A DNA stretch of 28,538 nt from a virus. This document shows positions 741 to 23,000 of the stretch, one piece after another. The stretch's first letter is position 1; each line of letters starts with the position of its first letter. The DNA lies in the IMG/VR virus record IMGVR_UViG_3300021962_000495, positions 1 to 28,538 of that record, one strand, 5' to 3'. A program made the translations under genes and the position numbers. A model generated the notes under the pieces. The model ran no database searches. It had not been told where the DNA came from and worked only from the letters and a program-made list of their open reading frames with translations.

Positions 741-1541
741 TTAAATATCAGTTTGTTGTGTTGGACTATACTCTTTAGAATCTGAGAAGAATTCCCAACT
801 TTCGGTAAATCCAAAATTATCTTCTGGATCTGCATTGAGAGGATCTGGTTGAACGGTGTATCTTACCTCACGTTTAGCCGTTTGTGTATTTGTATCAGTA
901 TACATGTCAACCTGAACCTTACGAATAAGTCCATCGGTAGATTCGGCAACAGGACCGAACATGTAAGTCTTTGCCGTAAATCTTAAAGTATAAATTAAAG
1001 CTCTTCTGGTAGAGAAATCTCCCTCATAATCATCCTGCATATCTATACTATCCATAACAACTGGAACGTCTCTCTTTTCTCCGATAGAGTCAATCAAGTC
1101 AACAGTTAGATTAAATGATGGTTGAAAAAATGGTAATATTTGCTCTACTATCTGCAGAGCATCATCATTTAATTTTGCATAAATGCTTAACTCAAATCCA
1201 ATGTTATAGGGAACTGGCATGTAAACTTTTTTAATGTTGCCAGAGGTATCACTTGCCTTAAAGGTTTGTGTAACGCTTGTTTTTCTAGTAGAATCATATT
1301 GTATGCTAGTCATTTCAAATGACATTCTTGGCAAAGTAATAGCGATAGGTTTCTTTAAGTCCTCTTGCTGTTGTATCTTTGCTAAGAATTTTTGAGCAGG
1401 TCCATAAGACAACCCAACCTTAGTTTGATCCGCGACAGTGCCATCTTTATTCAAATGTCTGACATAAATGTCGTTAAATAAAGTTCCAAAACTTATGATT
1501 GTTTTGCGTATAATTTCGTGATAAAAATAAGTTCCTAGCAT
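741..1541 (-). CDS. 15: Tail sheath stabiliser / tail completion protein (gp15-like)
   Basis: A 266-residue protein close in length to T4 gp15 (about 272). gp15 forms the ring that caps the tail tube and sheath and joins the finished tail to the neck (gp13/gp14). The N-terminus MLGTYFYHEIIRKTIISFGT is the characteristic opening, followed by LFNDIYVRH. The middle contains PRMSFEMTSIQYDSTRK and VPYNIGFELSIYAKLNDDAL, typical of the family's beta-rich core. The C-terminal third (FGPVAESTDGLIRKVQVDMY) is a further conserved segment, and the last 30 residues are acidic and probably flexible. The start overlaps the gp14 stop in a TAATG junction, so translation is probably coupled. No insertion of the kind seen in gp14 is present. 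Confidence 0.94.
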   Translation of the reverse strand: MLGTYFYHEIIRKTIISFGTLFNDIYVRHLNKDGTVADQTKVGLSYGPAQKFLAKIQQQEDLKKPIAITLPRMSFEMTSIQYDSTRKTSVTQTFKASDTSGNIKKVYMPVPYNIGFELSIYAKLNDDALQIVEQILPFFQPSFNLTVDLIDSIGEKRDVPVVMDSIDMQDDYEGDFSTRRALIYTLRFTAKTYMFGPVAESTDGLIRKVQVDMYTDTNTQTAKREVRYTVQPDPLNADPEDNFGFTESWEFFSDSKEYSPTQQTDI

Positions 1542-2983
1542 TAATAGTCTCCAAACGGATTAGACTCGGTGAAATCTAATATAGAGTCTGCTTCTGTTTC
1601 GATTTCTTCATTGATGTCATAAGATTCCTCATGACTATTGTCATCATATGATTTAAGTATATAGGATGCCGAAGAATCTGCCCCAACGATAGACTCTCCG
1701 GCAGAGAATCTTCCACTATTAATCGCAACATAAAGTTCATATGGAGGATTAGATGCGCTAATATCATCTCTAATTCTAAATCCTCTAACAACGGCAGTTG
1801 TTCCGGAAAGAGAACCAGTTACTGTTTCGTTATAAACGAAGGTTCCAATTCCCGTAGAAGATACTGTCGATATTGATACAGTTGGAGTTTCGGTATAACC
1901 GAATCCAGCATTAGTCATTTGCAGAGCACTTACAGTTCCATTTGTACTATTAATTACCGCTACAGCAGTTGCAGTAAATCCAATTGAAGGACCGACATCA
2001 TCGGTAATGGTAACTGTCGGTGGAATATAGTATCCACTTCCAGCATTAGTAATAGTAAGAAGTCTAATACCATCATCTACAATAACTGCTGTAGCAGCTG
2101 CTCCAGTTCCACCACCACCAGATATTGTTACTGACGGTGGATTTGTAGCAGTATATCCAGAACCAGCATTAGTAATTCTAATCGACTCAACAGAATAGAC
2201 ACCACCAATGGATGTTGTAATAGCCACAGCGGTAGCAGTTATTCCGCCACCAACAACAGGATTTGCAATCGTTACAGTTGGAATCGAAACATAATCATAA
2301 CCATCATTATTGAGTACAATTCTTCCAACCATACCATCACCACCAAGTGTGGCAGTAGCAGTGGCATTTGTAGAACTATTATCCAGTGTCAGTGTTGTAA
2401 TATATCCTTCATCCTCAACAACTCTATCTATTTCATCGACAGAAGTATCAATATCCTCATTTTCATATTCAAAGAGTTCACAGAGAAGTTCATAAACATA
2501 TGTCTTGCCAAGTTGATAGAATGGCTTTTCCGCTTCGACTCTTTTTATTTCAAACAATCTTTGTCCTAGTGGAAAATAAATTAAATCACCCTCTCTAGGT
2601 CTTGTGGTTAAATCAATCTCATAGTCATCAATGCTTCCATCAGAAATTCCTGTTTGTACTCCTTCCAAGAATGGTGTGATAAAATCTTGAAAACGTTCTT
2701 GGGATATGATTAGATTAATTTCATTTTTTAATCTAAGTCCAAACTTAGTCATCAAATCACTACCAGGAGCATATCCTTCATAGTTGTCTAGATACGCTTC
2801 AATAATAAAATTGTCATCAAATTTTGATGTCTCTACTTCTCTGAGTATATCATCTGTTCTTATAAATTTTCTGGGAATATAGTAAACATCAATCCCATAA
2901 ATTTTCAACTGCTCATTGATTAAGTCCTGTATTAAGTACTGCTCCCTAGCAGAACCTTGTAGGAAAAATGGATTTAGTGCCAT
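1541..2983 (-). CDS. 14: Neck protein gp14, enlarged by an internal repeat insertion
   Basis: gp14 is the head-completion/neck protein that works with gp13 to close the packaged head and attach the tail. Residues 1-195 are the conserved gp14 core: MALNPFFLQGSAREQYLIQD, then IYGIDVYYIPRKFIRTDDIL, EAYLDNYEGYAPGSDLMTKF, and TRPREGDLIYFPLGQRLFEI. The last 30 residues (EIETEADSILDFTESNPFGD) are also family-like. T4 gp14 is about 256 residues, whereas this one is 480. The excess lies between the core and the tail. Residues about 205-374 hold four GsGYt-type repeats (period 41-46 residues) and residues about 380-447 hold an SGA/GE-type module. The frame is unbroken, so this is a real in-frame insertion and not an assembly artefact visible here. 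It starts 5 bases after gp13 and ends in a TAATG overlap with gp15. Confidence 0.94.
   Translation of the reverse strand: MALNPFFLQGSAREQYLIQDLINEQLKIYGIDVYYIPRKFIRTDDILREVETSKFDDNFIIEAYLDNYEGYAPGSDLMTKFGLRLKNEINLIISQERFQDFITPFLEGVQTGISDGSIDDYEIDLTTRPREGDLIYFPLGQRLFEIKRVEAEKPFYQLGKTYVYELLCELFEYENEDIDTSVDEIDRVVEDEGYITTLTLDNSSTNATATATLGGDGMVGRIVLNNDGYDYVSIPTVTIANPVVGGGITATAVAITTSIGGVYSVESIRITNAGSGYTATNPPSVTISGGGGTGAAATAVIVDDGIRLLTITNAGSGYYIPPTVTITDDVGPSIGFTATAVAVINSTNGTVSALQMTNAGFGYTETPTVSISTVSSTGIGTFVYNETVTGSLSGTTAVVRGFRIRDDISASNPPYELYVAINSGRFSAGESIVGADSSASYILKSYDDNSHEESYDINEEIETEADSILDFTESNPFGDY
1862..2371 (-). repeat. Four-copy protein repeat (GsGYt..PtVtI module) inside gp14
   Basis: This stretch encodes gp14 residues about 205-374. 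The repeat unit reads approximately A.ATAV....G.v..i.iTNAGSGYt..PPtVtI. Anchor motifs are NNDGYDY (residue 225), TNAGSGYTAT (271), TNAGSGYYIP (312) and TNAGFGYTET (357). At the DNA level the plus-strand string ccagcattagt occurs at 1905-1915, 2040-2050 and 2163-2173. The copies are therefore similar in nucleotides as well as amino acids, which points to fairly recent duplication or recombination. The pattern predicts short beta strands with Gly-rich turns. Confidence 0.85.
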
Positions 2984-2988
2984 AATAA

Positions 2989-3828
2989 TTATCCAATAAA
3001 GTCCATAGGAGGCAATTCATATTCCATACTCATTCTCTGCTTAATATCCTCCAGTTCTCTTTCAGCATCTTCATAAATTTGCCTTCCATTTAATTCAATA
3101 CCGCCAGGAAGTTTGACACCATTGAATTTAATGAGATTTTGTCCCCATTGTCTCTTAATAAGTGCGGTTAAGTACTTCTTCAAGAAACTATCATTGTATA
3201 TTTTAGAAAAATCTGTAGGGTCTAATGCTCTATGGCAATCGATTACAAAGAAAGTATCTGCAGATTGAGCACCCCAATCAATATCCAAATAAAGTCTGTT
3301 TTGTCTCTTATTAAATCTTATTTGCTTGTCCGTAGTAAGAAGGAAGTCAATATCCTCAAGATATGACTTAACCATCGCATACTGCAAAAGTTCTACAGAG
3401 TTAAAATAATATAAGTCATTCAAAAACAACTGATATTTGATACTGAACATTCCACCAGAAATGGAACTAGTATCAAATTTAAATATTCTCTCAATACCAA
3501 TTACAGAATCTGGAACTTGAATATAGTTTGATGTTTCATAATAATTAAATGTTGTCGCCGCGCCAACTATTGTAGAGGTTCCTGTCGTCGTAACAATTCC
3601 TACACCATCAGTCCCTTTCGCTTTACCTCTATCAATATCACTTTGGGAAACTTTGTACTTTAAATACATTCTTTCAACGCCGTCATAATGACGTTCGTTG
3701 AAATATTGAATGGCATCATCTACCAAATCATCTATTTGCTCATCATCTACGTTAATCTCTAAGACAGGTGCTCCTAATCTTCTTAGACAATAATCGATTA
3801 ATCCTTGTCTTGTACTTGGCTTAGCCAT
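2989..3828 (-). CDS. 13: Neck protein (gp13-like head completion protein)
   Basis: A 279-residue protein (T4 gp13 is about 309). gp13 and gp14 form the neck that closes the DNA-filled head and provides the tail attachment surface. The diagnostic N-terminus is RQGLIDYCLRRLGAPVLEIN, then VDDEQIDDLVDDAIQYFNER and HYDGVERMYLKYKV. Further family-like stretches are VPDSVIGIERIF and YYFNSVELLQYAMVKSYLED, a segment ending LTALIKRQWGQNLIKF, then GVKLPGGIELNGRQIYEDAE. A short Gly/Thr-rich loop (residues about 75-95) precedes the conserved VPDSVIG segment. The ATG overlaps the preceding stop as TAATG, so it is probably coupled to the fibre-like gene upstream. gp14 follows after 5 bases. Confidence 0.94.
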   Translation of the reverse strand: MAKPSTRQGLIDYCLRRLGAPVLEINVDDEQIDDLVDDAIQYFNERHYDGVERMYLKYKVSQSDIDRGKAKGTDGVGIVTTTGTSTIVGAATTFNYYETSNYIQVPDSVIGIERIFKFDTSSISGGMFSIKYQLFLNDLYYFNSVELLQYAMVKSYLEDIDFLLTTDKQIRFNKRQNRLYLDIDWGAQSADTFFVIDCHRALDPTDFSKIYNDSFLKKYLTALIKRQWGQNLIKFNGVKLPGGIELNGRQIYEDAERELEDIKQRMSMEYELPPMDFIG

Positions 3829-5171: not shown

Positions 5172-5375
5172 TCATTTATTTAAAAATTCTTTCAATAGTG
5201 ATTTGATTTCTTCAATGTCCTTTTTCATCTCATCAAGTTCTTTTCTTTCATTATCCTTTCTTTCAAGTTTTTTTACATAGTTATTGTAGGCAACTGTGTC
5301 GCAGTTTACAATTGCCCCCGTTTTTTCATCTCTATAAAGATGTGGATGATCTTTTACTTTTATGAACTTACTCAT
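5172..5375 (-). CDS. Small hypothetical protein with C-terminal coiled coil
   Basis: A 67-residue protein. Residues 1-30 read KFIKVKDHPHLYRDEKTGAI followed by VNCDTVAYNNYV, which looks like a small folded head. Residues about 34-66 are a highly charged helix (ERKDNERKELDEMKKDIEEI then KSLLKEFLNK) with heptad-like hydrophobic spacing, likely a coiled coil. I recall similar short 'HPhLyRD..tGAIvN.D...Y..Y' proteins near the structural genes of cyanophages, but I know of no assigned function. The start codon overlaps the stop of the DUF4815 gene as ATGA, which supports coupled expression and a role connected with that protein. An assembly factor or minor virion component is possible (inference). 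A late promoter follows directly downstream, so it ends its transcription unit. Confidence 0.72.
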   Translation of the reverse strand: MSKFIKVKDHPHLYRDEKTGAIVNCDTVAYNNYVKKLERKDNERKELDEMKKDIEEIKSLLKEFLNK

Positions 5376-8300
5376 TTCAATGCAATAGTTCTGAGATCTC
5401 TGATTCTTGGAGGATACGCCTGATTGGTTCCAGCCATCACAACTTTAATTCTATATCCAGTAAAATCTCCCAGATTATTTGCAGTAAATTCATACTCTAA
5501 GAACTGATTATCTTCACTTGCAGGAACTCTCACATCAGGTCTTCCACTATTATTTGCAGAATCCACAACAATAAAATCACCATCTCCAGTAGAAGTTAAA
5601 TTATCATAACCTGGGAATAATTCAAACTCCTGCTCAACAGCGGCAGAGTCATCTCTAATCAAACTATAAAGAACTCTTATATCAGCAGACTGATGCCTAT
5701 ATGCCGTTAACAGAACTTTAAGCGAAGATGCTGGTTGTGCAAGATTAACTACATTTGAAACGTAAGTAGCAGTGTGAGTATCATTTAAGAATGATTTGAC
5801 TGAAGAATCAGTTGCATAGTTAGTTACAGGATTATTCAGATTATTGCAGGAGAACTCTACAGTAGAATCATCCAAATAAATGATTGGAGAAAGATTTTCA
5901 TCCTCAGTGTTCAATGTTAATGCTGCGGTGAAAGATCTTCTTCCAGCAACATTATTGAATACTGGTTGATTTAATTCATTAACTCTGGAGCAAACAATTC
6001 TTGCAGAACTCAAAGAATTTACTTCATTTAATGTTACTATGTCTACAGTATTAAGACGTTCGAAAGAAGTCTCAGAGCCATCAATACTAGTTCCAGTTGT
6101 AGATCTAACAACAGCACTCACTGAGGTGAGTTTTCCAGGAGCATTGACATCAAATCTAGGATTAATCTCATTATATAAGATGTTTTCAGATGCTTTTATC
6201 TTGTCACCACCGCCAACTAAATCACTCTTAAATGAGAGTTCGGGACCGTTGGAGTTATCTGCACTTCTATCCAATCCGTATGTGGAACTTCTATCAATTT
6301 CAATGTAATAGCGATTAGCTTCAATATCTGTATCTGAAATATCGTGCGTAATACCATTAATTCTTCTCAATGATATTCCAGCAAACTCATATTTCATAAC
6401 AACAGTATTTGCACTATGATATTGAGTTATAGTATTGCCATAACCTCTAGAGTTAATTGTCAATTGATTGGATGCTGCGGCAGTGTATTCAATAATCTCA
6501 TCACCGATTTTCACATAACCTTTATTTGTCGCACTAACAGCAAGTCCTTCAAAAGTTGTAAAGTTTGACGAATCTGCAACTTGAATAGTTGTTGTTTCTG
6601 TAGACAACAACTGTGAAGATAACGTTGTTGGTGCAACGTCAGATTCAATTCCATTGAGAGTCAGTTTGTTATTGTTTGCATACATACCATGATTAAAATG
6701 ATCTACGCGCAAGTAATTGCCAGATTGTGCTCCAGTTCCTTCAGATGTTCTGTCGGTGATAGTAGTTGATGCTGCACCAACAATAGTAGAATCAGTATTG
6801 TAGTAACTCAGTCCAGCTCCAACTTGGAAAGATTTACCAGAACCTTTTTCGCCTTGAACGTTAGTCAGATATAATGTATCGACTCCTCCAATTGCTGTAA
6901 TGGTAAGAAGAGAATCTCTTCCAGTAAAACTTCCATCAGAATTGTCGATGGAAACTACATCACCAACAGCATAACCATTACCTCTACTTGTTATTGTAGT
7001 TCCTGAGATAGCACCACTAGTGGTTGTAAAATCAAGTCTTAAACCAGAACCGCTACCAACAACAGTTGTAGTGGGAACGTCAGATTGATTAGTATAGTTT
7101 GCACCACCATCAGTAATTGATAGTGTTGTTACAGAACTTCCGAGTGAAACAATATTACCATATCCACCGGTGCCATTATTACCAGCGATTCTTCTACCAA
7201 CAGTTAAGATGTTGAGTAAAGGATCTCCAGAAGTAATAGTGGTAATTCCAAGGGTTAAAGATTTTGGAGTTGCTGTAAGTGCATTATCTTCAAGTGTCTG
7301 TATATAACCATTACTTTCATCAAGTGGTGGATTGCCAAAATATGCAATACCACTGGTGGATGCAAATTTTGCCTTATAAAGTTTGAATTTGAGATCTAAG
7401 TCTTGAGCAGGTGTCCAAGTAGAACCATTCTGTGACTTGAACAAGCTTCCCATTGCAAATTGCTTAGAATAAATAACCGATTCGGCATTAGGAAGAGACT
7501 GAGTATTTGCAGTCTTTTCACCCATTTTAGCAATCCAAACTTCGTACTCATCAGTTGTTGGTGCAAGAAGAACTACAGCATACTCTCTACCAGGTGCAAG
7601 GAAGATTGGATAATCAAAGGTAACTGTAGTGGCAATCTCACCCGTTGTCGATGTTGTAATATCAGAGGGAATCAGAGTTTTTGGTTCCCCAACAATATTA
7701 AGTGTTGGAACTCCCAGTTCAACTGTTCTTATCTGAATTTCTACAGGTTCGTTACCACTAGGTTTGTTTGCAAAATACAAATCAAGTTTTGTCAAATATG
7801 CACCATTATCATCATCATTTTGTCCGTTCAAATCTGGAGCATCGATATCTTTGCCGACGACAAATGATTGTGCCAGAGGATCATATCTAACAGCAACTCT
7901 TTCTCTTATAGTCTGTCTAACTTGGAATGTTCCATTTGCAGTATAAGATGTATTTGCTGAAGAAATCAGTTTACTTCCAGGAAGTGGTTTCTGATTACTG
8001 CTGCTATTACTTAATGTATATGTCTTTTTACCTGTAAGAATTCTAGGATCTGGTGCTGGGAAAGTGTTTGGATCTCTAATGAAGAATGATCCTAACAAGT
8101 CGCCATAATTATCAGTAATCAGTCTAATGTCTTTTACATATGCAACCGCACCACTAGTTTGTCCTACTAATTTTACACCCTTCAAAATGTACCCAAAGAA
8201 TGAACCTTGTGCTTCTTGCGATAAAGATGCTAAGTCTACATTCAGTACCTTTGAGGACTGACTATAGGCAGATGGAACATTCTCACTCTTCACATATGGA

Positions 8301-11300
8301 TTTATATTGTAAGTTTTTGATGGAGAATTAAATGTACCTTCTTTATGATTTGATGATGCAAGTCTAAACTGAATAATTCTTTCATCATTAAAGTACCCTC
8401 TCACAGTTTCACCTGCAGAAAATACCCCACTAGATCCATAGTTTTCTAAGGTGGTGTCATTTGCAATCTCAATGAGTTTTGGTACAAAGTCAACATTACT
8501 ATGATTATCTAAAAACTGGTAGTGAGTTGAAAGTGGTTTTAGATTTCTTGCAAAAACTGAAACGTTTCTTGAGCGAATATATTTTTCGGCAGATGAAGAT
8601 ACGATAACATCTCTTGTTCTTGTATCTACTCTCGTCAATCGTCCGTGTCCTACGGTTCCACCATCGATGGATCTGGATGGCAGTCTGACAGTTCTTGTCC
8701 AAACATCGGACGATGGCGACAATTTAACCGTTCCATTATATTCTATTACATGGAAAGGATTGACATTTTCAACTCTGGTTGCAAGAGGTTGTTCAATCCA
8801 ACCGACAGAATCATATTTCAAAGTAATCGCTTTACCAGTCTTCTGAACATTAGCATCCAGTAAACTAAAGTTTGAATCTAAATCCAAACTATCTTCTGCT
8901 ATTTCTGTAGCAGGAAGAGGTCTCAATTGAAGTGAATTTGAAAAAATGCGTGGTCTTAACTCACCACTGATAACATCTGCTGTTGTTAAATCATTGTCTA
9001 AAAGTGTTTTGTCATTGAAGTCATCGACAAAGAATCCAGACTTAAATCTATTATTGCCATCAGCGTCTTCAATTCGAAGAGACTCTGTGTTTACTTCCAA
9101 TAGACTCAGAGAGGTAACTCTTTCAAGATTTTCTATTCTATCTTCAAGAGTTCCAATGTCTCTCATTGTATATCTTCTATTGTCAAATAATGTAATAGAA
9201 GCATTGCTGACATCATAAAGATATGGTGGAAGGTTAATGGTTGCCAATTCCATCAAATCAGTATCATTAACGACAGGTTCTTTTGGTCTTCTGGCAGAAA
9301 TTCCTCTACTCAGTATGAAATTGCCAAACTTATCGAGATATAACTTATCAATTCTTGGTAGATAAAAATCATATCCAACCAAAGAACTTTCACCTGGTTT
9401 CAATGTATATTTTGGTTCTGTTCCAAAGTTTCTAGAATCAAAATCAAAAGGAGACTTATCAGTTACAGTAAACTGTTGTACTCTTGGTCTAAAATCGAGA
9501 GTATCTGAAGCTCTAACCTTATTGACACCGATTGATGGAATGTCATTATCAAACCTATCGGCATCATAACTTAATACCGTAAATACATCACCATCATCAG
9601 AAGATGGTACAGTATAATGATCGAATACAACTAATAGTCTTCTGGATGGTTCTAAGTTGTTGTTTCTAACAAGTCTTGAGTAGTCATAATATTCATCTTT
9701 CTGTGCCTTATCCAGTACAAAACTATTTGTAATATTTTTATATTTTCCTAAGGTGATTGATTGAACAGATGATGTAATGTTAGATTCTTCAAAGACTACA
9801 TTTTCACCAACAGAGAATCTCAGTCTGTTCAAATAAACAATTCCCAAATTGTTTGATGGTACTGATGGAGAAGTTGAGGAGTTTAAGACTACTCTAGCAA
9901 TTGCCCCACTTGTCGATCCAACGATAGTTTCTCCAACAATCGCATCTGAATCAATATTTGATACTGATGAAAACTCAACTCTATCTAATACAGGATCAGC
10001 ACTATCAGTCGATTCATATACTGCAAGAACATTCGCTACGTCTGGATAGTTCAATGATATTTCTTTATCTTGAACTCTTAATCCATAATAATCATTAAAA
10101 GTCAGTCCATCAGAAACTGATGTGCTTGTTGCAGATCCCGACTGAGCATACTTGGAAAGATTTACAATTCTAATAGAACTTCTAGTGTATTCTTTAATCT
10201 TACTTCTAATACCATTTTTCTTAAGAGTGGTATTAACAACAACGCTACTTTCTGAAGTTTCTAAACCACTAATAGTTACAGTGTTGGTGGCAGAATCCAA
10301 TACAAATGAATCGGAAGTTACTGTTCCGATTCCACCACCAGTGTAGTGAATGGAATATCTTTCTTGATCGAAGGTTTCAAAGAATGCACTAGTAATTCCA
10401 GTGATAGCAGATAAATCAAATGTTAACTGCCCTGCACCATCGGTTGTTTCTCCAGTGATTTGTCTTGATATTGATAATTGAGAATCTGTGAAATTAACAG
10501 ATGAGATATTTCCTTCTGGAAGTTTTGCATAAAGGTATGCATTCTCATTATTTTTTAATTCTGGAACACCTAACTCTGCCTTGAACTTTCCACTTCCAAC
10601 GGTTCCAACAAAAACACCACTAACTGAAGCTGGGTTAGTAACTGTTAAAGAAGAAAGATCTGAAGATACTGCTGTTACTCTATTAAAGGTTTCATCACCA
10701 CTTCCATTCTGATATCTAACAATATCACCAACATTTACTCCAGAAAATAGTTTTCCTGGACTCGTAACTGTACTTCCACTAATATTAACTTCACTAATAC
10801 CATTTCCAAATTTTCTTCTTGCTAAAACTGTATCTGCAGAAAATGCTGGGAATCCTCCACCGGATGTTGCAGAAATGGATTTAATGTCTCTAATACCATT
10901 TGCAGTAAATTCAGTTACTGTCAATGAAGAATCAATTCCGTTAATAATGATTTGTTCATTAGAAACAAAAGTTCCAGAAGTTTGACTTAAATTTAAAGTG
11001 CTTCCAGATCCTGCCGCAACAGCATAACCACTAGCGCCACTACTCTTCCCTTGAATGAAGGATGATTTTGGAACTTCAGAAGAAGTGACGCTTCTATTAA
11101 ATGTTAAAGACGTGTATGTCTGAATATCGTAAAGATACAAATCCCACTGACTTGATGCATCTTCGTAAGCAGCATCCGTTAGATTAAAAGTATAGACTCT
11201 TGCAGATCCAATTCCGGATGGTGTATCGCCACTGAATTGATTGTTAAGAGTTATAATACCATTTTCTTGAAGTGCTCCAGAAACATTATTAACTCTCAGC

Positions 11301-12490
11301 AAATGTCCCATTTCAAAGGGAATATTTGAATTTGATACAGTCTCAGTAGCTCTTGGTTTTGAAACATCGAGAACTTGTGTTGATTGATTTTCAACATCAT
11401 AACCAGCAACGTATGCTTTTCCTGGAGATATTTGGATGCACATCAAATCATTCGATGGCTCATTACCACTATCAGTAGTTTCGTCGCTCAAATATAAACC
11501 ATCATTTCCAAGTCTATTATTTAAAGAATCAACAATTTTAATATCAAATGGTTCTACCGAATAATGTCCAGATTCTTCATAGGTTCTTTCTGCAATATAA
11601 TCTCTGATTACATTGTATACCGTTTTGTCCTGTACCTTTTTAATCTTTCCTGCATCAACTCTAAGCAGTTCAATAAAATCGGTATCGTTAAAATCTGTAA
11701 GTGGTTTTTTAGTTAATTTTAAAGATAACTTGAATCTATCAGCACCTGGTGCTGCATAGTTTGTAAAACCCTTTGCATTATCATACAGCGAATCATCATC
11801 TTTTGCATTAACAAGTCTTTCTTCTACTTTTAAACCTACTCTATACGATGGAGTATTGGTATAATAGTCTAAGATGAGAGTCTGCTTTGAAACATTAGCA
11901 AAGATTCCCCTGACAAAATATACACCCTCATCGATAGATACTGACGATCCTGTCGATGTCGCACCTTCAGAAATCAATGATGCAAACTCTGTGCCAGCAT
12001 TGATAGTTGTATTGCCATAAGTTACATTTTCGTTAGCGAATAATGCTTCTCCATCCTGGAATGTTTCTGTAGCGTAATCATTACCAGAATCGGAATATTT
12101 GACGTAAATTGTTAACTCATCTACAGAACTACTATCAGATGTAAGGGCAACATACTGTATTGATGCCGAAACTCCTGATAACTGTCCTGTGACTTTCTTA
12201 CCAATAAAACTTTTAATATAAAGTGAAACATCTACACCTAAACTGGTAGAATTTAGTTTTACTGCTGAAAATTGATTGTCAAAAGTAAGAGCTCCTGGCA
12301 GAACCATAGAGCCTTCTTTGAAAATATTTTTTCCAAAGAACTCAACTTGATTTTGGAATATTGATTGAAGAGTTGTTAATTCTCTAGCCTGAACTGGATA
12401 TCCTGGTTTAAACAGAACTTTATAAAAATCTTTATTGCGATCAAAATCGTCGTAATATGGGCTGATATTTAAATCTGTTTTTTGTGCCAT
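5372..12490 (-). CDS. Giant DUF4815-type baseplate/tail-fibre structural protein (2372 aa)
   Basis: A 2372-residue virion protein. The N-terminus is the DUF4815 type: MAQKTDLNISPYYDDFDRNK, then KVLFKPGYPVQARELTTLQS and FGKNIFKEGSMVLPGA, continuing to about residue 400 with VYFVRGIFANVSKQTLILDY and ISPGKAYVAGYDVENQSTQV. A short coiled coil, MRDIGTLEDRIENLERVTSL, lies near residues 1105-1130. A conserved central part near 1530-1700 has DPLAQSFVVGKDID, AYLTKLDLYFANKPSGNEPV and KQFAMGSLFKSQNGSTW. GsGYt-type repeats lie at about 1780-1900 and an IGDEIIEYT...RG module at about 1960-2030. The C-terminal 110 residues (AYRHQSADIRVLYSLIRDDS, ELFPGYDNL, FTGYRIKVVMAGTNQAYPPR) match a C-terminus I recall from many marine phage proteins. 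It occupies the place of T4 genes 9-12/wac, so it is probably the baseplate-to-fibre component. It starts 6 bases after gp8. Confidence 0.88.
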   Translation of the reverse strand: MAQKTDLNISPYYDDFDRNKDFYKVLFKPGYPVQARELTTLQSIFQNQVEFFGKNIFKEGSMVLPGALTFDNQFSAVKLNSTSLGVDVSLYIKSFIGKKVTGQLSGVSASIQYVALTSDSSSVDELTIYVKYSDSGNDYATETFQDGEALFANENVTYGNTTINAGTEFASLISEGATSTGSSVSIDEGVYFVRGIFANVSKQTLILDYYTNTPSYRVGLKVEERLVNAKDDDSLYDNAKGFTNYAAPGADRFKLSLKLTKKPLTDFNDTDFIELLRVDAGKIKKVQDKTVYNVIRDYIAERTYEESGHYSVEPFDIKIVDSLNNRLGNDGLYLSDETTDSGNEPSNDLMCIQISPGKAYVAGYDVENQSTQVLDVSKPRATETVSNSNIPFEMGHLLRVNNVSGALQENGIITLNNQFSGDTPSGIGSARVYTFNLTDAAYEDASSQWDLYLYDIQTYTSLTFNRSVTSSEVPKSSFIQGKSSGASGYAVAAGSGSTLNLSQTSGTFVSNEQIIINGIDSSLTVTEFTANGIRDIKSISATSGGGFPAFSADTVLARRKFGNGISEVNISGSTVTSPGKLFSGVNVGDIVRYQNGSGDETFNRVTAVSSDLSSLTVTNPASVSGVFVGTVGSGKFKAELGVPELKNNENAYLYAKLPEGNISSVNFTDSQLSISRQITGETTDGAGQLTFDLSAITGITSAFFETFDQERYSIHYTGGGIGTVTSDSFVLDSATNTVTISGLETSESSVVVNTTLKKNGIRSKIKEYTRSSIRIVNLSKYAQSGSATSTSVSDGLTFNDYYGLRVQDKEISLNYPDVANVLAVYESTDSADPVLDRVEFSSVSNIDSDAIVGETIVGSTSGAIARVVLNSSTSPSVPSNNLGIVYLNRLRFSVGENVVFEESNITSSVQSITLGKYKNITNSFVLDKAQKDEYYDYSRLVRNNNLEPSRRLLVVFDHYTVPSSDDGDVFTVLSYDADRFDNDIPSIGVNKVRASDTLDFRPRVQQFTVTDKSPFDFDSRNFGTEPKYTLKPGESSLVGYDFYLPRIDKLYLDKFGNFILSRGISARRPKEPVVNDTDLMELATINLPPYLYDVSNASITLFDNRRYTMRDIGTLEDRIENLERVTSLSLLEVNTESLRIEDADGNNRFKSGFFVDDFNDKTLLDNDLTTADVISGELRPRIFSNSLQLRPLPATEIAEDSLDLDSNFSLLDANVQKTGKAITLKYDSVGWIEQPLATRVENVNPFHVIEYNGTVKLSPSSDVWTRTVRLPSRSIDGGTVGHGRLTRVDTRTRDVIVSSSAEKYIRSRNVSVFARNLKPLSTHYQFLDNHSNVDFVPKLIEIANDTTLENYGSSGVFSAGETVRGYFNDERIIQFRLASSNHKEGTFNSPSKTYNINPYVKSENVPSAYSQSSKVLNVDLASLSQEAQGSFFGYILKGVKLVGQTSGAVAYVKDIRLITDNYGDLLGSFFIRDPNTFPAPDPRILTGKKTYTLSNSSSNQKPLPGSKLISSANTSYTANGTFQVRQTIRERVAVRYDPLAQSFVVGKDIDAPDLNGQNDDDNGAYLTKLDLYFANKPSGNEPVEIQIRTVELGVPTLNIVGEPKTLIPSDITTSTTGEIATTVTFDYPIFLAPGREYAVVLLAPTTDEYEVWIAKMGEKTANTQSLPNAESVIYSKQFAMGSLFKSQNGSTWTPAQDLDLKFKLYKAKFASTSGIAYFGNPPLDESNGYIQTLEDNALTATPKSLTLGITTITSGDPLLNILTVGRRIAGNNGTGGYGNIVSLGSSVTTLSITDGGANYTNQSDVPTTTVVGSGSGLRLDFTTTSGAISGTTITSRGNGYAVGDVVSIDNSDGSFTGRDSLLTITAIGGVDTLYLTNVQGEKGSGKSFQVGAGLSYYNTDSTIVGAASTTITDRTSEGTGAQSGNYLRVDHFNHGMYANNNKLTLNGIESDVAPTTLSSQLLSTETTTIQVADSSNFTTFEGLAVSATNKGYVKIGDEIIEYTAAASNQLTINSRGYGNTITQYHSANTVVMKYEFAGISLRRINGITHDISDTDIEANRYYIEIDRSSTYGLDRSADNSNGPELSFKSDLVGGGDKIKASENILYNEINPRFDVNAPGKLTSVSAVVRSTTGTSIDGSETSFERLNTVDIVTLNEVNSLSSARIVCSRVNELNQPVFNNVAGRRSFTAALTLNTEDENLSPIIYLDDSTVEFSCNNLNNPVTNYATDSSVKSFLNDTHTATYVSNVVNLAQPASSLKVLLTAYRHQSADIRVLYSLIRDDSAAVEQEFELFPGYDNLTSTGDGDFIVVDSANNSGRPDVRVPASEDNQFLEYEFTANNLGDFTGYRIKVVMAGTNQAYPPRIRDLRTIALK

Positions 12491-14052: not shown

Positions 14053-14060
14053 TATTTATA
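14053..14060 (-). promoter_or_regulatory. T4-type late promoter box
   Basis: Minus-strand TATAAATA, identical to the T4 late consensus, lies 17 bases upstream of the gp8 ATG and overlaps the last codons and stop of the giant gp7-like gene (stop at 14058-14056). With T4 spacing the transcript would start near 14047, leaving a leader of about 12 bases, AAAACTATCAAT, which has no Shine-Dalgarno sequence. A 14-base string, TATAAATATCTAAA, is shared exactly with the promoter at 5148-5155. Confidence 0.75.
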
Positions 14061-17000
14061 AGATAATTTTAGGAAGGGCTCCAGTATTTCTTATGCTGAC
14101 ATTTCTTCTTTGGATAGTTGGGTATGTAGAAAGACCTGCAACAACGTTGCCAGTAACACCAATTGATATTGGATTTGACGATCTTGTTAGTCCTCCACTA
14201 ATATTGGATAATCTGCCCCAGGAATATTTTCCAACAGGATTTGTTATACTACCAAATGTTTGAAGTCCAACTACCGAAGAATTAGAATCTACATTACATG
14301 TAATAATTCCAATAGTTCCAGAACTGCTCCAGGATACAATCTTATAAACATTATCTAAGAAGGTTGTTCCAATACCAACAATAGCGGCATCAGAATTATC
14401 AATTGATGTAACACCAGTACCAATTCTTGTGTCAAACACATAAACTGGATATCCAGTAGAAAGTCCCGTAAAGGAGGATGCATTAATAGTGAATTGGAGT
14501 GCTAATGGATTAGAACCAGTTCCAAAAGAGGTTGTAATGCCAGTTACAATTCCTGAGAAACCATCGACATTGACAAAATTGGATATGAGTTCAACAGAGT
14601 CTGTGGATACTGTTGAAATTCCATTAACAACAAGAGCTGCAAAATTTGTTGGTGGAGAAGAGGCTCCTTTATCACTTTCATAGTCAAATATTTCTGCATT
14701 ATCAACAAATATTTCATCGGATGTAGTTGAAAATCCACTGATAATTCTTGCTGTTGGGAAAACCAGAGATTCTATAGAATCTCTAGATTTATAAACATTT
14801 TCGCCATTTATTTTTTTATCTGTCTTCTGTTTTATCCATGCCAATGGTTTTACATTAGTTTCATCTATTCCAGGTCCACTGTAAGAATCGGTTTCAAACT
14901 TGTCAGAATAAGTTAAGTCAAAGATAGTTCTCTCATCTTGCGTTACTGTTCCGTTAATAGCATTATTTTTGAATACCTGAACATTATCGCCAACTTTCAA
15001 TGACTGATTGATTCCAGTAACCAAAGTACTATCACTTCCAGAAATTCCCCTATAGAAGAAGATTGCAATATTATCTTCAGATTTAGGTGCTGAAGTAAAT
15101 ATGAATGATGTACCGCCAGTAAACCTATAGGAAACGCCAGGTTCTTGAAGAATGCCATTAACAAAAATTAGAAGAAGATTTTCTAATTTTTGATTTGGTG
15201 AAAGTGATGTTGAAGGTTCAAAACTTAAGAGTTCACCATTGTAGAAAAGTGGGAATCTAACTCTTATTCCGTCCTGATAATTCCTTACAGAATCAATATA
15301 ATCCAATTGTCCAAATTCCCATGCTGCAAAGTTATCAGAATATGTGTCAAGAATGGTTATTTCAAAATCTGATAATGGTGCAGCCAGAGATTTATCAGTA
15401 ACAAGTCCAACAGGTTTAATAACGTCACCTCTTCTGAACGAATATCCATTCCGAGCAATCTTAAATTCGGTGACTTCAAAGAAGGTAGAACCAATACCCG
15501 AAGTGGATGGTCCAACTTTAACGTCTAATAGGAGTCCAATACCAGTCTCAGTTGTTGCACCAATTCCCAGTCTAGAAACACCGGTAACTGGAAGATTTTC
15601 GTATGAAGGATCTGAGACGAATATTTCTGGATTTGTGTATCCAGTTCCACCAGAACCAACACTAAATGTTAAAGTTCCTCCAACACCAATGGTTGCAGAA
15701 ATTGATGCCACATCACCAATGTGCCCATTTTCAAAAACACTAATTCCAATGGAAACCAGTCCATTATATCCAGAACCATTGAAGTCAGTTGTTCCAAGTC
15801 CTACAGATACAATTGAACCTCCAGCACCAACTACAGCAGTCACAGATGCTCCTACAAGAGGTGCAAATCCAGATCCTGGTGTCGAACCAAGGGAAACAAT
15901 AATTCCACCTCTTGGAGTCTCATTTTGATTTATATCAAATTCTGAAACAACATATTCTAAAGGATCAACATCTGGTTTTGTAAGTCCTGAGAATACTATT
16001 GTAGTAATGCCAGCAACAGTATTTTCGTTAATCTCATAATTATTGTTTCTGTTATTGTCTGTAGATGGTGTTTGGAAAATATTATTTACAAATACAATTC
16101 CACTTCCACCAGTTGAACCAAGTCCAGTAGTATTTGCTCCACCCACCAATAGTGTGAATGTCCTACCAATGCCAGTGAATTCATCAGAAATATCATCATA
16201 AATTTGATTTCCAGTATAATCACTTCTCAAGAATACTCTTCCGTTAAAATCGGAGGTTTCATAATCCAAGTTTAAGTCAGTCTTGTCAATTTGAGGATTT
16301 CCTCTTGGAGCATCTGTAAAGTAAATTTTATTTTCTACAATATTAAATGCTCCTTTATGAACTCTAACTGTTGTGGAATCGGTATGTGAGGTTGCAGATG
16401 TTCCAACAAAACCTCTCTTAACTAAGACAAGGTTTTCTGTCCCAACATTAGTAATAGGTCCAACATTGGTTGTTCCCAGTCCAACGTTAGTAACTTCCAT
16501 ATACTCATTGTCTATCTTTAATATATCTTTTGGAGATATTGAAGATATTCCACTTAAAGTAAATGTTGTCGATGTTGTGCTAATTTGTCCACCATTTCCA
16601 GACAATTGGTGTGTTATTTTTGTGGCAGCGATTGGATATTGAACCAAATTATCAATGGATATGATTGATTTGGAATTTCTCTTCGCCATAGCAAATCTAT
16701 GAGCGTTTCCTTCGCCAAATGTTACAAATGTCACTCCAATTCCATTCTGAGCATCGGTTTTACTAATGCCTACTTTAAATGTATCATTAGTTAGTTTAAT
16801 TGCATATACTGTTTGTGGAAGTTCATCAGTAGCACTATACTTCATGGCACTAGTACCAATGCCAACAAATGTTGAATTTGGAGTATAAATTAATTCCTCA
16901 CCAGTTCTAAAGAAGTGATTCTTAATTGAGAATATACCAGTTGTTGCAGCTAAGGAAACTGAATTTGGATTAAACACCTTAGCGAAAATTGGTGTTCCAT

Positions 17001-20000
17001 TTGTTGTCAACTCAAAATCAAATTTATTAATTCTGTCACCATTTATAGAATTGTAGAATTTTTCATCAACCTCTTCATCAATTTTTCCATAAACTAAATC
17101 ATTTGGTTCATTGGCAATGTCAATTGTAGTATAAAATGATTTACTGAAAACAGAGATATCAATGGCTCCAGTTTGATTGCTATCGGGATAAAATTTCAAC
17201 AATAAATTGTCTCCATCAAAATCACCACCAAATGTTCCTACACCAGAAGCGGTGTCAAATTCATCTAATGTTGACACTGAAAGGAACGGTAACTGATGAG
17301 TATAAACATCAGTATTATCATGAATGGTTAAAACTTGATGAAGCGCTTTTGTAGATCCTACACTTACTTCGACAAAAGACTTCGAAGCATTGAATATATT
17401 TTTATTCAATGAGAGAATAGTTGTAGATGCGGCAGAAACTGTACCATAATGTTTTGCTTCATAAACAACACTTCTTTCATTGCCGGGGATCTGTCCGTCG
17501 GTAATAAATCTAAACGTTCCAACTCCGACTGCAGTGGTTCCAAACCCTACAATGTTAGACTTTATTTGAACCTCATGGGTTGTATCATTGGTATGTGTAA
17601 TGCTTAATACACCACCAGACAGATTGGCACCAAAAGTGCCAATAGCATTTCCAGAGAAACTTGTACTATCTTCACTATCTGCATAGTATTCTGAAAGGAA
17701 ACTATCAGATCCATTATGAGAAACTAACAATTTGACATAGTTTGCATCATTGGTAGTATTATCAATTACATGTGCAGTCAAATATAAAGATTCAAATTTA
17801 CCAGAATCGAGAGTGATAATTGTTGATATTCCAGTTCCAGTGGATTCAATATTTACGGAACCAGTCAAATCCACAAATCCAATTGATGTTGTTCCAACAC
17901 CAGAAACTATACTGTTGAAAGTTTGTTTGATTAGTTTGATATCATAATCTGTGTTGTTAGGATCGTCGGGATTAAATCTCAAATATGTGTCATTAAAGTT
18001 ATCGGTATATAAGTCAAACGTTCCATATTCTTCTCCAGGTGTTTCATTAGTACCACGATTGACTAAAAACTCATTATCTAAAATGAATGATGAAGTATCA
18101 TCGTTAATGATTGTCAAATCATTGAACTGAATTTGAGTATTGTCGCTATTTGTTACTCTAAAAATATAATTCTCATAGTTATTATCTCCTAATTTCACCA
18201 AATTGACATATGGAGTAACATCAGCATCACTATTTGAGAATTGATTACTGATGTCATCTATAGATAAAACATCATTGCTTCTTAACTCAATATAATCAGT
18301 CAGTTTTTTATTTTCCAGTTTTAAGAATTTTGATTTAGAACCAACGACATCAATATCAACAACGTTGTCAAAGTTGTAGATTGTATCAACTCTATTTTCA
18401 TCAATGAAGTATGAATAGAAGTTGGTGTCACTGTATGCTGTCGTAATACCAGCATTTCTTCCATCAGGATCTTTTGTTATTGATGATGTCAATCCAACAT
18501 CGGCAAAATTCTTTAGTCCACTAACATGAACCAAGTTATTGACTATCGATTCTTGCTCTTTCCAAGTTTTAGAACTCTTAATTGTGTAAGAAAGATTTTG
18601 GAAATAATCATTATTTGGTGTAACTTGAAAATCTTCGCTCAATCTTCCAATCTCATCTTCCCATCCCAAATTCTTTGTATTAGAATAATTGATTAAAAAT
18701 TCACCTTTATTTTCATCAATTGTGAAAATAGTAGCTACATTTCCAGATTGTTTTCCAGTTATTATTTCATTTACTGAAAGTTCATATGAACCAGAAACTT
18801 TTAAGATATTCTGATTACTTTCCGAAACAGTCAAGTCCCTCTCAATACCATTACTAATTAACTTTTCACCGACTAAAAATGTGCTTATAGACTGTGTTAT
18901 ATTGAAAGATGGATAAGAATTTTGATTGACAAGTGTTCCTGAAGAATCTTGTATTGTTTTTGCAATTCCTGTATTTGTTCCAAGTCCAGAAATGCTCAAG
19001 ACAACTTGATCATTTACGGTAAGTCCTTTAATATAATTTGTTACCTCTAAGAATCTATAACCATAATCTGAGGAATTAAATCCGCTACCATCAGTACTAT
19101 ATTTTTGAATTCCCTCAACAAAAACCTTATCACCGATTTGGAAAGGTTGTGATGTAAAGCTAGTAATTCCGTTAATAGTTGGCGTTGTTATAATGCATGT
19201 AAAGATTCCGGCAGAGGATGATTGTACTTGCTGAACACTAACACCATTAGTGTTATTGGTTGCAAATAATTCAACCGAATTATTCGGCAATCCCTTTGGT
19301 TGAGTGGTAACATTAACAGACTGAACGGAAGTTCCAGTTAATAAAACCTCAAAAGAACCAGAGTTTATAACATTTCTAGTGTCTGGGTTTACTATCACTA
19401 ATGATGGTGGTGTAGTATATCCTTCTCCAGAACTAATAACATCAATCTTAGAAATTGTATTAGAATCTTTAACTGTTATTAATGGTGATATAAAAGCTTG
19501 AGGTCTTAAAGTAAAATCGCAAGAATACACAAAATTATCAGTTATACTCCTAGATTGATTTAAATTGCCAATAGTATTTGATAGTGGCGATATGATTAAA
19601 TCTTTACCATTAGTTGAATTAGTCGAATTTAATGTAGGTAATTTTTTATAACCATATCCAGAAGATAAAATTTGCAGATTTTTAACAGGTCCTTGAGCTG
19701 TAGTTGATGTTGTACTATATTCTAATGTATCACACTCAGATTGAATATAATTGAGTTTTTCTGGTCTCCCATTTAAAGTAATGGTAAATGAGGTTGTAGC
19801 AATACCACTTACGGAATATGAATTATTATAAAGGCTGCCGACAAATTTTATTTTGGAGTTATTTTTAACATCACCGTCTGGTGTCAGCAATGTGCCATCT
19901 CTTTCTAATGTGTAGAATAATTCTTTCGGAACACTATTATTATATTCTAGCGTTAGAGAGGCATTTGTTGAAATGCCTGCCGTTCCTACACCAGTAATGA

Positions 20001-23000
20001 CAAAATCGGAGGTATTTCCAATAGAAACAAATTCATTGATAAATTCTTTATCATAGAAAAGTTTTAATTCATATCCACTCAATGATGAATCCGTTAGATC
20101 AAATACTATGTTATTATTTTTGATTACATCAATTGATGGATTTATTAAGGATATCGATTGGGAATTGCCTCCTGTACTAGCGATGCTTACAGCGATTGGC
20201 GGTACTGATAGTGAATCTTTATAAGTTTCGCATATTTTGATTTTATTAGAATTTACTCTATAAACATAGAAATAATTTTTATCAAGAATTGGATTATTAG
20301 CATCTTCAAAATAAACTTTATCTCCTGTTTTCAAACCATGGTTACTTAATGTAATGACATTGCTTGTGGTGTTAATTCCGGTGGAATTAAATCCAATAGG
20401 ATTGATGATTAAACTATCGATTTCTGACTTATACAGAACTTGAATATTGGTTGAAGTTCCAATTCCAACAGAAAGATTTGGTTCAATACTTAATTGAATG
20501 ATATCTCCATTTGTCAATCCATGAGAAGTTGACACTGAAACCGTTGCCTGGGATTTTTGAACATCTCCAAATACTTGTGTATGTGAAGATTCAAACAAAT
20601 ATCTATCATTATCATCACCATTTGTGTGGAAAAATACTTCGGAACTGCTGATTTGTGTCTTGATGCCAATCAGGTTTTTATTTTTCTTCACAACATACAA
20701 TGTTGATGGCATTGCAAATGTTGAAGAACCATCGGTTGAAATGCTTATATTGGATCCACTACTTGTAAATACAATTTGTTGATTAGATACAAAAGGATGA
20801 TTTTCTAAGAAAACGCCTTTAGAAACAATATCCCTGGTTACAGTGGTATCACCAAAATTAAATGTTACTGATGTTGATACTCCGGTTATTGTTCCAACAC
20901 CTAAAGATTCTTTAGGATTGAAAAATACTTTTTCATTAACTTTAGAATCGAAATAATCAACTGACTCTGATATTGTAAATGAATCGGGTATAAATGTTAC
21001 ACTCGAACCTTGAGTATGTGATACTCCGGTTAATCCCCTTTCAATTCTAATAATATTTTCATTTCTATGAATTCCCAACACTCTTAATGTTTCTGTTCCA
21101 ATACCAATACTACTTCCAATAGAAATTTGCTCAGGAACTGGAGAAACGTAAATTTCAGTAGTAAATCCTGCTGTAGATGAAGTTACTGTAGATAAACATA
21201 CACCATTAGAATATGATGGAACAGCAATCTGATAGTTTTTATTTAATTTTGAGAGAGTGGTAGTAAATCCAGAAATCGATACATAATCTAAATTGGAGAA
21301 AGTGTGATATGGTAAAATCGATACTTTAATATCTCCATTTTTATTCCAACTGAAAATAGAGTCAAGATTCTCAGTAAAGGTTGTGGTAACGTCAGTAATA
21401 CTTCTACCTTTAATAGCAGAAACACTTACATCTAATCCAGATCCAGATGTATTATCTTCGAAAAATTCTAATTTATCATTTACTTTATAATTGTCTCCAG
21501 AGTTTTGAATTTCTATTGAATTAATATATCCCTCAGATACGGATTCAATTTTTGTCTGCTGCTTAGTTACATCATCAATTTCATTAAAGAAATTATAATC
21601 AGCATTATTATCAGATACTTTGTATGGGAATGTGTTTCTATGCAGAATTGATTGATTAAAATCAAATGATTGATTTAAATCATTATCTTTAAGTAATTTG
21701 GAATAATACTCATTTCCTATAAAGTATGGGAATGATGGAGTTGAGTTGTCTGTTACATTAAGAGTTGCGTGGTAAACATACGTACCATATGGAAATTCTG
21801 ATGTTTTTTCGAATCTTCCATTATACTCATCTAAGTCTCCACTATTACTAAATGTATAATCCTCTATAAAATACCCAGCATCGAATCCAGAAGGTCTATC
21901 TACAACATTCGATGTATTAAGTTCATATCCAGACTCTAGAGTTTTTACGGATGATGACATATCTTCTGGATTTGTATATCCAAAAGGACCATAAATTGGA
22001 TTTCCATCGTATGCCCATCCAATAATACCGGATACATTTCCTTTAATATCTTTAAATGCAGTTCTTAGTCCGCTAAAATATTTTGAAACGGAATATTTTA
22101 AATTATCATCTCCATTCAAAAGAACTTCACCACTATTAAATCTATTGAAGCTATCATTAATAGTAAGAGATCTTACATTTACATCAATAACCGAATTCTT
22201 ACCAGATGAAATTACCTTTACCTTTGTTGAAGTTGCAGAGTATCCAATTCCAGCGCTTATAACTTTAACTTCTAATATTTTACCTGCACCAATTACAGCT
22301 CTAAGTTCAGCACCCGAACCAGAACCACTAGAGTCTTGAACTACTAAATCTGGAACTGAATTATACTCCAATCCACCATATGTAACATTTGCAGAGTTAA
22401 TCGAGCCATTAATTATTACTGGGGTTACTTCTGCTTGTTTTCCATTCTTTATACTGATAATGGGTTTCTTTTCAAAGTTTAGGATTGTCGAGCCATATCC
22501 AGTTCCAGTTTCATACAAGTATGCATCTACCAAACTTCCCTTAACTACTGGCGTTGTAACAAGTTCTTGATACTGTTGAGTTGTGGATCCAATTCCAGTG
22601 TTAACATATGTGATTAATACAGAAATATCTGGATATGCAAAATACTGATATCCAACTCCAGTATCGGTAAATTTAATATAATCACCTCTATTAAAGTTTG
22701 ATGTGAATGTTCCCCCTATACCAGCGTCACACAACCTAAATGCATTATCATCTACCTTCAAGACATAATATTGATTTGATGTGGATATTCCTGTTATTTG
22801 TGTTGTCTCAAAGTCATAGGTTACAAGTTCTCCAGTATTAAATCCATGATCATCAAAATTAACGGTATCTCTAGTGGTTGAAATGCCCGTAGGTTTTACA
22901 ATTAATTTTCTATTTGTGTATCCAGAACCTTCATTTATAACCTTTACATAAGAAACTACATTTTTAGTTTTTGCAGTTGAAAACTTATGAGTTCCATTGG

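Follow-up and report, generated by a model that had tools for sequence, protein, structure and literature searches.

In phage T4, the neck protein gp14 (PF11649; PDB-codes: 9lu4-9lu7 and 9mkb) has 256 residues and consists of a ring-forming core followed by a C-terminal arm that binds gp15; nothing, neither barrel nor repeats, lies between the core and the end of the arm. Residues 178-256 are disordered in the isolated neck and contact gp15 in the virion (PMC12270204). The whiskers and collar that decorate the T4 neck are made of fibritin (Wac), a trimeric coiled coil that is encoded by a separate gene and sits on domain III of gp13. Neck fibres of the Anabaena myophage A-1(L) and decorations of the stopper and terminator of Staphylococcus phage 812 have been seen by cryo-EM, and these too are separate gene products (PMC10966104, PMC12886913). 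Laminin_G_3 or concanavalin A-like domains occur in host-recognition proteins of marine phages; pelagimyophages have a variable cluster of host-recognition genes that is flanked by the VrlC gene and gp14, and their structural operon contains concanavalin A domains (PMC7029224).

We analysed a viral DNA stretch of 28,538 nucleotides (IMG/VR record IMGVR_UViG_3300021962_000495, hereafter the window), in which, unlike in these systems, the predicted neck decoration is an insertion in the closure protein gp14 itself. The window gp14 belongs to the T4 neck protein family according to its score against PF11649 (98.4 bits at a cut-off of 25; 6e-28), and it matches PHROG 460, “head closure Hc2”, at 5e-131. 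Its core has the T4 gp14 fold: phmmer finds 9mkb at 3.9e-22, and VIA-align superimposes model residues 1-181 on 9lu4-9lu7 with Z-scores of 12.8-13.1 (131-144 residues aligned, 33-35% identity). The gene order gp13-gp14-gp15 is conserved as in T4 (Table 1), and full-length gp14 copies with 99% identity to that of the window are present in four other viral contigs.

Table 1. Features of the gp14 locus in the window; aa, residues of gp14 unless stated otherwise.
Feature	Position	Strand	Basis
gp14 neck / head-closure Hc2 gene	1541..2983	(-)	ORF, 480 aa
gp15 tail terminator / sheath stabiliser, partner of gp14 arm	741..1541	(-)	PF16724 1.3e-91
gp13 neck adaptor (279 aa), without most of T4 fibritin-binding domain III	2989..3828	(-)	PHROG 211 2.7e-48
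Conserved gp14 core, aa 1-190	2414..2983	(-)	T4 gp14 match by fold and sequence
GE barrel, first strand, aa 193-203 (strand 193-201)	2375..2407	(-)	AlphaFold2 strands and structural matches
Repeat 1, aa 205-239	2267..2371	(-)	Independent-clade HMM and repeat scan
Repeat 2, aa about 247-287, ITNAGSGYTATNPPSVTI	2123..2245	(-)	Independent-clade HMM and repeat scan
Repeat 3, aa about 292-326, ITNAGSGYYIPPTVTI	2006..2110	(-)	Independent-clade HMM and repeat scan
Repeat 4, aa about 335-371, MTNAGFGYTETPTVSI	1871..1981	(-)	Independent-clade HMM and repeat scan
SGA/GE beta-barrel module, aa 373-452	1628..1867	(-)	HMM E 1.5e-33 and 9f4a_A0 fold match
Conserved C-terminal segment, aa 453-480, EADSILDFTESNPFGDY	1544..1627	(-)	Kept across relatives

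An earlier note on this DNA had proposed that more than 200 inserted residues, with four repeats, separate the gp14 core from its tail. The insertion is real and is absent from T4, phiM12 and PhaxI; the interval given at that time, 1643-2371, corresponds to residues 205-447. A profile HMM built solely from a distant clade recovers all four repeats, placing them at residues 205-239, 249-287, 293-326 and 337-371 (domain E-values from 9e-13 to 4e-11), and gives 102 bits on the window segment, compared to at most 13.0 in 1000 shuffles. The identities between repeats 1 and 3 and between repeats 2 and 4 are no higher than those of other repeat pairs, and a pair of repeats as the duplicated unit is therefore not supported. 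The SGA/GE module is found with an HMM that was built with relatives and the window itself. Matches of the insert among PHROGs are to tail-fibre, baseplate and virion structural proteins. The C-terminal segment corresponds to the T4 arm (178-256), so that the insert is located within the counterpart of the arm with which T4 gp14 grips gp15. At 480 residues the protein is indeed nearly twice as long as T4 gp14, which is unremarkable among cyanophages.

Two other structural genes on the minus strand of the window may be mentioned here. Positions 14056-25710, or 41% of the window, encode a protein of 3884 residues that matches PHROG 2885 (“baseplate wedge subunit”), and positions 5372-12490 encode a DUF4815 structural protein of 2372 residues with a GE-type module at its residues 851-909 (E 1.6e-6) and a weak match to the repeats.

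In an AlphaFold2 model of gp14 (76-sequence alignment), pLDDT values are mostly 80-96 in the insert and below 50 in the linkers on either side of it (residues 172-191 and 452-460). Modelled alone with 38 sequences, the insert reaches a pLDDT of 89.5 and a pTM of 0.78. Structural matches cover residues 189/193-200 and about 378 to 448-460 and skip the repeats, as deduced not from coordinates but from the small number of aligned residues relative to the stretch they span. Since these matches span both sides of the repeats, strand 193-201 would be part of the GE barrel and the repeats would be housed in the first loop of the barrel. The insert is thus predicted to be a discontinuous β-barrel; the SGA/GE module of the earlier note is present, but it encloses the repeats and does not form a separate module downstream of them. 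The predicted barrel superimposes on residues 765-849 of a chain from the baseplate complex of Klebsiella phage KP1 (9f4a_A0) with a Z-score of 9.8 and an r.m.s.d. of 2.5 over 84 residues at 12% identity; this match stands clear of the next one (Z 5.5), but the possible likeness is one of fold only. Elongation-factor-type barrels match more weakly, with Z-scores of about 5.

For the repeat domain, Foldseek found nothing under E 0.001 in the PDB, and the VIA matches concern the barrel alone, which is no proof of a new fold; significant matches are seen in viral structure models with related repeats. The insert profile has no meaningful match among PDB sequences and no Pfam Ig-like domain at E-values up to 1. 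Profile searches of the window gp14 revealed no recognised binding domain, with Laminin_G_2 and Laminin_G_3 found in relatives only, and no Fibritin_C or fibritin PHROG match; its model contains no helical rod and no fibrous or coiled-coil fold.

Where could six such inserts be accommodated? Six copies of 264 residues occupy about 211,000 Å3, compared to 91,000-152,000 Å3 for the neck channel, taking its width of 44 Å from PMC12270204 and an assumed length of 60-100 Å. A location within the channel is rejected on this estimate, and because the six inserts exceed the channel volume an outside location is likely. The predicted own fold, the loose linkers, and the fast sequence change and the further domains in relatives described below also make an outward position the best reading; the earlier note had proposed that the insert projects from the neck, and such a lobe may project or lie flat. 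The partner gp15 has 266 residues in the window and 333-362 residues in L087, L092, L093 and the L259-L338 group, with the extra part near the C-terminal region, by the counterpart of the segment that contacts gp14 in T4. We did not find gp15 length to vary strictly in step with the class of gp14: the gp14 of the L055 type, which carries a laminin G (LamG) domain, pairs with a gp15 of 266 residues.

The insertion is not unique to the window phage: searches with its gp14 gave 114 phage records with a query coverage of 80% or more, and matches in at least 80 contigs. We found no published description of it in the openly accessible literature. For the survey of relatives that the earlier note had suggested, we used 380 complete gp14 sequences from viral contigs, the window and 16 named phages, with one short fragment dropped for classification, and the presence of the insert turned out to be graded. 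It is lacking in T4, phiM12 (217 residues) and PhaxI (213 residues). The class counts are not abundances, because the sample was drawn through five chosen queries: the S-RIM44 clade has the GE barrel only (292-296 residues, n=76); the S-RIM8 clade has two repeats, which are housed in another loop (372-487 residues, n=86, including L256-L258); a third class has mostly four repeats ahead of the GE motif (456-658 residues, n=150, including the window); and a fourth combines LamG with six repeats (757-767 residues, n=81). Repeat numbers in the 317 repeat-bearing relatives are 2, 4 or 6, and odd counts were never detected; the single form with two repeats before the GE motif, ACG-2014f, probably has degenerate repeats. 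The four-repeat form is retained throughout a large clade, and the window has this form without LamG or further modules. All cyanophage gp14 examined, among them the PHROG 460 members of P-SSM2, S-SKS1, S-SSM7, S-RIM8 and S-RIM44, contain at least the GE module. As to the question raised earlier, whether all relatives carry the segment as part of the core, the barrel is present in every cyanophage gp14 examined, and T4, phiM12 and PhaxI do without it. The decoration of the closure protein is real, and it is family-wide yet internally plastic.

Two database records deserve comment. In phage metaG-MbCM1 a giant structural protein of 2409 residues (L419 20957-28186; NC_019443.1 80956-88185) is labelled “gp14 neck protein”, and the likely real gp14 is the 308-residue “head closure Hc2” gene between gp13 and gp15 (95845-96771 of the record). 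The mislabel probably arose because of the shared repeats, which may thus account for at least one annotation error. The linear record of S-PRM1 (L093 1-6265) begins within the neck cluster, and the gene ahead of gp14 is annotated at 97 residues only.

Relatives of the window carry further nested modules. Laminin_G_3 matches 20 of 20 members (best E-value 7.2e-8), some single members lying slightly below the curated cut-off. All 477 residues of the L018 gp14 align with that of L055 at 81% identity, and the only addition in L055 is a stretch of about 280 residues that contains a repeat, LamG and a repeat. The LamG of S-SSM7 is homologous to it (about 28-30% identity) and sits closer to the start of the repeats, so that LamG has been inserted at different slots in two clades (gp14 of S-SSM7, Sf-FS3 and L055-type relatives). 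These domains share a superfamily with the host-recognition domains of marine phages (PMC7029224), and among phage records the LamG domain was found in gp14 only. Other modules occupy similar gp14 slots in L074, L079 and S-BM1. By analogy with the pelagimyophages, the gp14 modules could be drawn from a neighbouring host-recognition cluster.

Sequence change in the insert outpaces that in the core by a factor of about two to three. Between the window and L005, L006, L009, L015, L013 and L034, dN is 0.17-0.27 in the insert and 0.06-0.12 in the core at similar dS; the dN/dS ratios in the window clade, 0.17-0.24 and 0.05-0.09, respectively, are rough because dS is near saturation. In a tree of the core alone, made with a quick method and with some long branches, the insert classes track three deep clades with the exception of L256-L258. 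L256 is 94% identical to S-RIM44 in the core and 93% identical in the tail, yet its insert is nearer to that of S-RIM8 (67%) than to that of S-RIM44 (56%). Exchange of the insert as a cassette in this one lineage is the best reading of these sequence comparisons.

We consider the insert to be an exposed, modular decoration within the head-closure protein that most likely serves as an auxiliary adhesion surface, and we give this reading a probability of roughly 0.6. In the neck ring of six gp14 subunits, each chain would exit between the core and the gp15-gripping C-terminal segment through a flexible linker and form a β-barrel, one loop of which would bear four β-hairpin repeats, before going back to gp15. 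Six lobes of barrel and repeats would then encircle the gp14/gp15 junction externally, where they may adhere to the host envelope, to extracellular polysaccharide or to other particles. We favour adhesion as their use because relatives swap the lobe as a cassette and because a LamG/concanavalin-like domain was added in two clades. It is the least certain part of the proposal; dN/dS well under 1 and the speed of change fit any exposed or weakly constrained surface, and S-RIM44-type phages get by with the barrel alone.

A doubtful but serious competitor is an external brace, in which barrel and repeats would pack on gp15 and the upper end of the sheath and so reinforce the junction of head and tail, binding nothing outside the virion. 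Its appeal is that the insert sits in the gp15-binding arm, next to a gp15 with a variable insertion of its own beside the T4 contact segment, and that the barrel, universal in the cyanophage gp14 examined as expected for a structural part, resembles a domain of a baseplate-complex chain; a lobe pressed against gp15 or the sheath would likewise be outside. However, close relatives differ widely in repeat number, slot and extra domains, gp15 length does not strictly follow these differences, and a load-bearing part is not expected to outpace the ring core in evolution. Far less probable is selfish or neutral spread, in which GE and GSGY modules would multiply in virion proteins by recombination and gp14 would just tolerate them. 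Several further families of virion proteins do have matches to related modules, as do, weakly, other proteins of the window, and nested insertions occur at several slots; the low dN/dS, the barrel in all sampled cyanophage gp14 and the four-repeat form kept across a large clade nevertheless make this account very improbable.

Could the insert stand in for fibritin and form whiskers or a collar, a decoration that the earlier note had considered for a phage with no visible wac gene, and thereby hold or sense the tail fibres? No fibritin gene was found: three fibritin families, which matched T4 as positive control, gave no match in the complete genomes of nine cyanophages, in agreement with PMC2984593. 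The fibritin-binding segment of gp13 has 29 residues in the window and relatives compared to 50 in T4, i.e. it is about 21 residues shorter, and judged from the alignment most of the domain III docking site is missing. PMC2984593 mentions, as an unpublished observation, a cyanomyovirus with whiskers that came from St Kilda, and we guess from name and North Atlantic origin that it is S-SKS1, which has the insert and no fibritin match. On the other hand, phiM12 and PhaxI have the same short gp13 segment and no fibritin match without any insert, so that compensation for missing whiskers is not specifically supported; S-RIM44 manages with a small barrel and no fibritin. Moreover, cyanomyoviruses lack g34, g35 and g37, the fibre genes served by whiskers in T4 (PMC2984593), and no fibre-like fold is predicted. 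We regard fibritin replacement as unlikely.

Extending the adhesion reading to the whole family, we tentatively suggest that the head-closure protein of the Kyanoviridae may double as a receptor- or glycan-binding platform, whose arm slot takes nested, swappable modules (barrel, even-numbered repeats, LamG) and thereby tunes attachment away from the baseplate. The variants with no insert, with the barrel, with 2, 4 or 6 repeats and with LamG offer a ready series for comparing structure and adsorption. If the reading is true, a fast-changing slot of the closure protein that can hold a lectin-type domain would provide a possible attachment surface on a highly conserved part of abundant ocean viruses.
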